A stretch of DNA of 64,000 nt. Origin: Candidatus Woesearchaeota archaeon. Its GTDB lineage: Archaea; Nanobdellota; Nanobdellia; Woesearchaeales; SM23-78. The position numbers and the translations under genes are program-made. Positions within the stretch are counted from its first letter, which is position 1; each line of letters begins with the position of its first letter. Shown piece after piece: positions 16,236 through 59,259 of this stretch. The stretch spans positions 1-64,000 of the forward strand of contig JAFGGS010000005.1 of the NCBI GenBank assembly GCA_016930415.1, given 5' to 3'. The notes under the pieces are model-generated. The model saw nothing but the letters and a program-made list of their open reading frames with translations. It made no database searches and was not told the origin of the DNA.

Positions 16236-16266
16236 CGCGCTCAGAAAAATTCTGTTTCTGGCGCAG
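16236..16266 (+). repeat. Short interspersed hairpin element CGCGCTC-N16-TGGCGCAG downstream of aIF5A
   Basis: CGCGCTCAGAAAAATTCTGTTTCTGGCGCAG; related copies at 37231-37262 and 37332-37363. Confidence 0.6.
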
Positions 16267-16280
16267 CTAAAACCAGGCTT

Positions 16281-16682
16281 TCAGCCTGTCTTTATCTGTT
16301 TCATGATCCTGTCGTTCAATATGACCCAGTAGACGACTGTCATGCCCTCTTTGAGCTCGGGCTTCAAGTCCTCCGGGATCGCCATGTCGAATGTCTCGTA
16401 AGTCTCAGAGTCCATGACGCTGGCGTGGTCGCCGTTAAGGTTTAGTACTTGGGCGTTCCTCTTCTCGATGACCGGGGTCTCGAGCTCGTCGTGACCTGGG
16501 ACTACTATCTGCCTCTTCTTGCCGTCTATCATGCCGACAGCGTCAAGCCTCACCTTTGCGTGTCCGTGCTTGCCTGGCTTTGAGATCTGGATGCTCGTGA
16601 CTGTGCACGCGGCATCCTCGACTACGATGTAGTTGCCTATCTGGAAGCTTCCTGCGCTCTTCCTCTTGACTTCTCCGCCCAT
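16281..16682 (-). CDS. Translation initiation factor aIF5A
   Basis: GNYIVVEDAACTVTSIQISKPGKHGHAKVRLDAVGMIDGKKRQ, including the hypusination loop. Confidence 0.95.
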   Translation of the reverse strand: MGGEVKRKSAGSFQIGNYIVVEDAACTVTSIQISKPGKHGHAKVRLDAVGMIDGKKRQIVVPGHDELETPVIEKRNAQVLNLNGDHASVMDSETYETFDMAIPEDLKPELKEGMTVVYWVILNDRIMKQIKTG

Positions 16683-37193: not shown

Positions 37194-37298
37194 GCCTCCG
37201 TAGCTTAGCGGTGGAGCTCGCGGCTGTTACTCGCGCTCTGCAATTTAAGGAGTGGCGCAGAGACCGCGCGGTCACCAGTTCGAATCTGGTCGGAGGCG
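37194..37298 (+). tRNA. tRNA-Asn (GTT) with a 33-nt intron (about 37230-37262) at 37/38
   Basis: Acceptor GCCTCCG/CGGAGGC, anticodon stem CGCGG/CCGCG after intron removal, T-arm ACCAG-TTCGAAT-CTGGT. Confidence 0.9.
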
Positions 37299-37320
37299 TC
37301 ATATTATTTCGCTTGGTGAC

Positions 37321-37394
37321 CGGTCACCAGTTCGCGCTCAGAAGCGAAGCTTCTGGCGCAGAGGACAACGTCCTCTTGAATCTGGTCGGAGGCG
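37321..37394 (+). pseudogene. Partial tRNA-Asn copy (variable loop to acceptor) with a roughly 43-nt insert in the T-loop
   Basis: CGGTCACCAGTTCG (37321-37334) and AATCTGGTCGGAGGCG (37379-37394) repeat 37269-37298 and flank a hairpin-rich insert. Confidence 0.8.
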
Positions 37395-37426: not shown

Positions 37427-37604
37427 GAGCCTGTAGCTTAGCCTGGCTGGAGCACACGACTGATAGCGGAGCACCAAAGGTGCGAGCCGCCAGGAATTCA
37501 GGGAATTCCTGAGCGCCCGTAGCGCATTTTTTAGCGCGAGGGAAGAATATGTGCGAGAAACGTCAGAGATCGTGCGGTCGGGAGTTCGAATCTCCCCGGG
37601 CTCA
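37427..37604 (+). tRNA. tRNA-Ile (GAT) with a 103-nt intron (about 37466-37568) at 37/38
   Basis: GAGCCTG/CGGGCTC acceptor, CACGA/TCGTG anticodon stem, GGGAG-TTCGAAT-CTCCC T-arm. Confidence 0.9.
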
Positions 37605-37651
37605 TCAACGATGAGGCTGGGGGCCTAAGAAACGTGAAACGTTTCTTTCTG

Positions 37652-37664
37652 TCCCCGGGCTCAT
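37652..37664 (+). repeat. Second copy of the tRNA-Ile 3' end (TCCCCGGGCTCAT)
   Basis: Matches 37593-37605; followed by a T run. Confidence 0.7.
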
Positions 37665-57685: not shown

Positions 57686-57796
57686 GCGCCGATGGTTTAG
57701 TGGTTAGAATGCGGCCTTGCCACAGGTTTTTGCCGGGAAAACAGGCAGATGCCCTGCAAAGAGGCTGCGACCCGAGTTCGAATCTCGGTCGGCGCA
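57686..57796 (+). tRNA. tRNA-Gly (GCC) with a 39-nt intron (about 57723-57761)
   Basis: GCGCCGA/TCGGCGC acceptor, CGGCC/GGCTG anticodon stem, CCGAG-TTCGAAT-CTCGG T-arm. Confidence 0.88.
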
Positions 57797-57840
57797 TGCG
57801 AAGCAGAGACGACTGGGCTAGAAACCCAATGGTTTCTACT

Positions 57841-57932
57841 CTCGGTCGGCGCATCTTGATTTATCAAGATAACGGCGAGCGACCCAAAAACGCTTTTTTT
57901 TTTTTTAAGCGTTTTTGCCTGTCGGTCGGCGC
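57841..57932 (+). repeat. Two further copies of the tRNA-Gly 3' end separated by a hairpin spacer
   Basis: CTCGGTCGGCGCAT at 57784 and 57841, TCGGTCGGCGC at 57922; last copy followed by a T run. Confidence 0.75.
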
Positions 57933-58817: not shown

Positions 58818-59259
58818 GACGAACTCAGTGAGACTGTGGGCTCAGAGGCGGTTGCCTCTGACAGTCCACCTTTCTTTGAGAACACGCACACTTTTTTGTT
58901 TCTGGCGGCTTCTTGCGAAACATTAATAAAGTGCCTGGGCGGTTTTCTTGTTTTGAGTTGTTTTGACCCTGTCAGGGGCTCGTTGCTACTCGCAAGTTAA
59001 AGGCAGCTGATTCAATAGCTACCTGCGTTTTTAAGCCTTAAAAACGCTCATATCTGGTGATATAGCCGTTCTCTGCGAAAACTTTATAAACAAAACTTAT
59101 TGTTAGAGGCTCACATAGGCAACTCCATAGTCCAAGACAGCGTATGGGGGCTTAAGAATGCGGTTGGTAAAACAACTGCATGAGGCAAACCCCATGGACT
59201 GTATGAGGACCATGGAACAGAGAGGTTACATGTCAAAGAACATGTTTACCAACAAGAGT

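Follow-up and report, generated by a model that had tools for sequence, protein, structure and literature searches.

Hairpin repeats and duplicated tRNA 3' ends at a tRNA-Asn gene of a Woesearchaeota archaeon and in its relatives

The tRNA-Asn locus and its two similar sites

The window, by which we mean the whole stretch of 64,000 nucleotides analysed here from a Candidatus Woesearchaeota archaeon (contig JAFGGS010000005.1), carries on its plus strand an intact tRNA-Asn(GTT) gene at 37194..37298 (exons 37194-37229 and 37263-37298). This gene is recovered by the Rfam tRNA model RF00005 with 51.2 bits over 71/71 positions, has 7/7 acceptor pairs, and is interrupted at position 37/38 by a 33-nt intron (37230..37262, plus strand), possibly a degenerate hairpin element, with a predicted fold of -17.5 kcal/mol (z -0.8). 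Folded by hand, the intron forms a relaxed bulge-helix-bulge (BHB), with an outer helix CGCGG/CCGCG, a central helix CTGT/GCAG, a 3' bulge AG^A and an irregular 5' bulge. Indeed, this site (site 1) behaves as an archaeal BHB tRNA intron should, in that its removal yields a normal tRNA and the junction lies in a BHB as judged by hand and by predicted fold.

A truncated second copy of the gene begins 23 nt past the end of the first, after a spacer (37299..37321, plus strand) that ends in GGTGACC, inverted with respect to the GGTCACC that follows. Of the tRNA, the copy retains the T-arm and the 3' strand of the acceptor stem; the D arm and the anticodon arm are missing. In particular, the 5' side of its T-arm (GGTCACCAGTTCG, 37322..37334, plus strand) is an exact match to the intact gene, as is the 3' side of the T-arm together with the acceptor strand (AATCTGGTCGGAGGCG, 37379..37394, plus strand), and between the two, in the T-loop, lies a 44-nt insert (37335..37378, plus strand; fold z -3.0). 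The insert folds into two perfect hairpins, CGCTCAG..CTGGCG (matched by the hairpin model described below at 37333-37359) and AGAGGAC-AAC-GTCCTCT (37360-37376); the prediction places them on a lengthened T-stem and reveals no clear BHB. In Rfam, tRNA was the sole family matched apart from tmRNA, whose weak match corresponds to the 3' end of the neighbouring tRNA-Ile.

The initial annotation had proposed that the anticodon intron and the T-loop insert are one tiny intron-like unit occupying two positions of the same tRNA. The identity on which this rested holds base for base: TCGCGCTC and TGGCGCAGAG lie at 37231-37238 and 37253-37262 in site 1 and at 37332-37339 and 37354-37363 in site 2, with a centre of 14 nt in each. 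The genome-wide pattern search suggested at the time has now been run and yielded no further copies; TCGCGCTC-N14-TGGCGCAGAG occurs only at 37231 and 37332 in the whole 1.3-Mb genome, and the looser GCGCTC-N8-30-GGCGCAGAG has two matches genome-wide, both of them the window sites. (Note that copy numbers in the genome rest on model and pattern searches.) As to the intron-like character of the two sites, folding bears it out for site 1, by its relaxed BHB; site 2 lies not within a complete tRNA gene but in an extra, truncated 3' half behind an intact one, and shows no obvious BHB.

Irrespective of the nature of the T-loop insert, we regard it as quite possible, if short of probable, that the two sites resemble each other by coincidence together with constraint on the splice site. 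The leading TCG of site 2 is tRNA T-loop sequence (GTTCG) outside the insert, so the identity is in part coincidental and the sequence common to the insert proper is reduced to CGCTC and TGGCGCAGAG; moreover, the CAGAG end of site 1 is constrained by the splice helix of the anticodon arm, and among 6358 other pieces of the window, 28 do as well as the best ungapped local match between the sites, which is 10 nt long. Against coincidence stands the fact that the two blocks at this spacing are unique in the genome; even with up to 3 mismatches allowed the two sites are the sole matches in the window, where 0.12 would be expected. By itself, the similarity falls short of overwhelming. The hairpin model gives the T-loop insert 35.9 bits (E 7.4e-8) and the anticodon intron 9.6 bits; because the E value of the latter is only 4.2, homology of the sites is not demonstrated, and their common descent from one insertion stays unproven. 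The Asn anticodon intron may be a degenerate copy from the hairpin family to which the T-loop insert belongs.

A dispersed family of short hairpins

The family has the consensus RYGC-U-CARAAA..UUUYUG-GCRY, with one bulged U. We searched for it by pattern in 193 genomes of the order, where near-exact matches were found to GCTCAGAAA-N-TTTCTGGC (the GC type, with an outer stem RYGC/GCRY and one bulged T) in 43 genomes and to CTCAGAAA-N-TTTCTGTTG (the TTG type) in 23, while reversed patterns used as a control gave 0 matches in all 193. Most matches are perfect hairpins with free loops. A covariance model, R1, built from 37 of the hairpins found by pattern, matched at least 12 loci in the genome studied here and at least 63 and 53 in two sister genomes, counts that are lower bounds because scoring was limited to the first 150 candidates of each genome; within the same limit it matched none at E 1 in several other members of the order.

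Two further members lie in the window. One, at 16236..16264 on the plus strand (33.7 bits, E 3.3e-7), sits in a spacer about 17 nt past the 3' end of a gene that resembles, by eye, translation initiation factor 5A (16281-16682, minus strand). The other, at 37487..37517 (31.7 bits, E 1.3e-6), lies in the opposite orientation, on the minus strand, within the intron (about 37466-37568) of a tRNA-Ile(GAT) gene recognised from sequence at 37427..37604 (plus strand; exons 37427-37465 and 37569-37604; fold z -4.4), which the Rfam tRNA model recovers in part. ARAGORN finds one of the four tRNA genes in the window; tRNAs of this genus are very rich in introns and are largely missed by that program. The neighbouring gene for cysteinyl-tRNA synthetase (CysRS) has its best matches, at no more than 67% identity, in Woesearchaeota, Pacearchaeota and other Nanoarchaeota, and 78 public contig stretches around CysRS relatives gave no model matches at E 0.01.

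Across genomes, both orientations are present in tRNA introns, 23S rRNA-like sequence, coding linkers and spacers. The anticodon introns of tRNA-Asn in sister genomes hold the reverse complement of the T-loop hairpin of the window, as does the window tRNA-Ile intron. The unit is not strictly a BHB intron: it is a palindromic repeat dispersed widely beyond tRNAs, and to this extent the earlier proposal is not borne out. The idea that one small unit can occupy different tRNA positions does have support, from a congeneric sister genome (G003). There, a 70-nt unit is shared, with 64/70 columns identical, by the T-loop insertion of tRNA-Lys and the D-loop region of a second, probable tRNA, one absent from the list returned by the Rfam tRNA model; the core hairpin of this unit recurs in the anticodon introns of tRNA-Asn, tRNA-Ile and tRNA-Pro. 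One genome (G037) has five near-identical units of about 130 nt on different contigs, and another (G005) has four fold-back units on different contigs. These last (L342-L345) are about 200 nt long, have ends like AAAAAGTCGCC..GGCGACTTTTT and enclose the hairpin as one of their internal blocks.

At six loci (L030, L037, L214, L226, L230 and L239) the hairpins fall within open frames of 197-652 aa, in charged, linker-like stretches. At two loci from different families (L213 and L252) the hairpins lie in 23S rRNA-like sequence, recognised by eye, near GGGTGTTCACCC..GGGATCGTGAGCTGGGTT. In addition, a longer conserved spacer element, CGCTCAGTAGG..CCTACTGGCGC..GCGCCTAGCGAGCC..GAGCGCGCTACGAAA, is found in two sister genomes (L027, L028 and L040) and may be an uncharacterised structured RNA. 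Viral contigs were considered as carriers of the family and set aside: of 35 exact-pattern matches in them, nearly all represent a single repeated context that looks like phage coding sequence.

Copies of tRNA 3' ends downstream of tRNA genes

The truncated tRNA-Asn copy has counterparts behind the other tRNA genes of the window, all on the plus strand. The tail of tRNA-Ile (37605..37663) consists of a hairpin and, ahead of a T run, a 13/14 copy of tRNA nt 60-73 (37650-37663); that of tRNA-Gly (57686-57796) consists of a hairpin and a 14/14 copy of the same segment (57840-57853) within 57797..57853; and tRNA-Leu is followed by a decayed tail (58818..58870) with a hairpin, CTCAGAGGC..GCCTCTG, in which the 3'-end copy falls under our threshold. 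Genome-wide, at an identity of at least 10/14, the final 14 nt of the tRNA (nt 60-73) recur within 150 nt downstream for 19 of 34 genes and upstream for 0. At 11/14 identity and within 160 nt, in four families (genomes G000, which is the one studied here, G083, G166 and G156), 49/103 tRNA genes have a downstream copy compared with 1/103 with an upstream one (p 6e-17), and in two hairpin-poor genomes the downstream figure is 2/54 (p 2e-9 against 49/103). (Note that the tRNA sets are incomplete, as a search with a single model misses tRNAs with multiple introns.) Tails at 11/14 number 3/11 in G005, 2/19 in G003 and 0 in both G002 and G006, differences which suggest that tails are gained and lost within the genus. 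Most of the genomes are drafts; the presence of tails in many separate genomes and contigs disfavours an assembly artefact.

The copies lie about 30-142 nt from the tRNA end. Of the 54 tails that reach 11/14, 44 include a perfect hairpin with 6 bp or more; the core CTCAR..YTG is present in 21, and the remainder carry other hairpins. In several tails, namely that of the window tRNA-Asn, that of tRNA-Pro in the same genome and a number from G083 and G166, the duplication extends to the 5' half of the T-arm, which in some is preceded by an inverted T-arm. In 6 of the 54, the trailer after the second copy repeats that after the first, as in a tandem duplication. Where the second copy is not identical to the first, acceptor pairs average 6.93/7 with copy 1 and 6.51 with copy 2; copy 1 keeps its pairs and copy 2 is slightly degraded, so that copy 1 is probably the working 3' end of the tRNA. 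Two loci in G156 (L325 and L335) have entire tail modules in tandem behind single tRNA genes. In G025, hairpins of other kinds accompany an inverted T-arm in the tails of two tRNA-Ser-like genes (L367, G025:C1:520968, and L381, G025:C3:278970). This genome lacks the family hairpins, and the process that makes tails may accordingly not require the family.

Might the tails be functional RNAs, that is, mimics of an acceptor and T-arm minihelix, or terminator-like hairpins, selected for 3' processing or termination? Many tails of the genome studied here do fold as acceptor/T-arm hairpins, several of them ahead of T runs, and the copy pairs with its own insert at 8.6 of 14 positions compared with 7.5 for shuffled inserts (p 0.002). 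However, co-evolution of insert and copy 2 was not seen: when copy 1 was swapped in, the change in energy was small and not significant (p 0.21), which leaves a selected RNA function unsupported. The number of tails, moreover, is very uneven between sister genomes (16/34 compared with 0/10 at 11/14). We therefore think a selected function unlikely.

Somewhat less likely still is that the tails are footprints of elements that entered tRNA T-loops or 3' ends by means of a tyrosine recombinase and were later deleted, leaving a displaced 3' end. Archaeal integrases do often act on the T-loops and 3' ends of tRNAs, leaving behind a restored tRNA and a displaced fragment. Displaced 3' ends at kilobase distances are known as integrase footprints (PMC8371274, PMC9897764), and the arrangement described here likewise has a displaced copy downstream of a restored tRNA. 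Here, however, the copies are tens of bases rather than kilobases away, the 30-142 nt or so between them hold no integrase gene or element and are usually filled by T-loop hairpins, and an integration followed by a clean deletion would have to be assumed separately for roughly every second tRNA in four families. The tails caution against reading every tRNA 3' fragment as the relic of a large integrated element.

Origin of the insert and of the tails

Transposition of tRNA introns is known in Thermoproteales (PMC4033280), where, as here, similar introns occur in different tRNAs and at different positions; that the anticodon intron was copied in this classical manner into the T-loop of the same tRNA is nonetheless the least likely of the explanations we considered, for although the window sites agree in ends and spacing, the tRNAs of the genus are rich in introns and the G003 unit occupies two tRNA loops, the T-loop insert lies in a truncated duplicate outside any tRNA and folds into two hairpins with no obvious BHB, the anticodon intron is no significant member of the family, and the family is common outside tRNAs.

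We favour, with moderate confidence, the view that the T-loop insert is a dispersed palindromic mobile repeat and that duplication of the tRNA 3' end spares the gene. The repeat would be a hairpin of about 26-30 nt with one bulged U, often accompanied by a second hairpin or embedded in fold-back units of 130-200 nt, and would have spread through an order of Woesearchaeota-like DPANN archaea into sites where it is harmless to RNA and protein, such as spliced tRNA introns, rRNA, charged linkers, spacers and the T-loop of a redundant tRNA 3' half. Insertion at or near tRNA nt 57-60 would be accompanied by duplication of the 3' segment of the tRNA, such that the 3' end of the working tRNA stays intact, and the copy that is displaced together with the insert persists as a slowly decaying tail.

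The presence of near-identical units at separate loci and in separate contexts (in G003, G037 and G005) is what gives the family the look of a mobile repeat. Its distribution in these sequences resembles that of mobile palindromic repeats, and from it we infer active mobility; the order of events, the mechanism of duplication and the lack of function are presumed. Since only 21/54 tails hold the CTCAR..YTG core, the tails may come from a separate process of their own, and the sharing of trailers, a mark of tandem duplication, is seen in 6/54 only; both points speak against the mobile-repeat explanation, as does the low score of the Asn anticodon intron with model R1. No mobilising enzyme came to light. 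In particular, the Y1 transposase domain (PF01797) is absent from the genome studied here (a draft, 91% complete) and from G001, G004, G005 and G006, and its absence from the first of these led us to reject a Y1/RAYT transposase as the mover.

Among known repeats, the Rickettsia palindromic elements (PMC3767692) are likewise palindromes scattered through the reduced genomes of cells that depend on a host (a life style we presume for this archaeon), and lie in spacers as well as in frame within protein genes. Those elements, however, are bacterial and 100-150 bp long, whereas the repeats described here are archaeal, have a bulged-U hairpin core of 26-30 nt and are strongly represented in tRNA introns and tails; the likeness is one of description. 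REP sequences (PMC3733652) and the BIMEs associated with RAYT are, like the present family, repeated imperfect palindromes of 20-40 nt, sometimes in inverted pairs. They differ from it in having a cognate RAYT and in their restriction to extragenic sequence, the hairpins described here also lying in coding sequence and RNA genes, and no consistent GTAG/CGTC tag was evident by eye. With respect to transposed tRNA introns, the family differs in that its hairpin also occurs outside tRNAs and in that site 2 of the window is not an intron.

A published proposal for Caldiarchaeum attributes the disruption of tRNAs to mobile elements (PMC3293823). The occurrence of one hairpin family in tRNA introns, in tRNA loops and genome-wide ties the gain of tRNA introns to a dispersed palindromic repeat, a link that can be tested in many related genomes and that bears on how archaeal tRNA genes gain introns and get broken. 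We raise, as a tentative idea that is on balance doubtful, the possibility that a DPANN family of palindromic elements, of DNA or derived from RNA, targets tRNA T-loops, restores its target by duplicating nt 60-73, makes the tails found on about half of tRNA genes and feeds new introns into such genes. If so, it would be a tRNA-directed element of a kind not previously described. Searches of the open-access literature turned up no account of the hairpin family or of tRNA tails in Woesearchaeota, which is no proof of novelty. As a separate observation, the tRNA-Ile region of G006 (L004) carries, besides an anticodon intron, a D-loop insertion of more than 100 nt.
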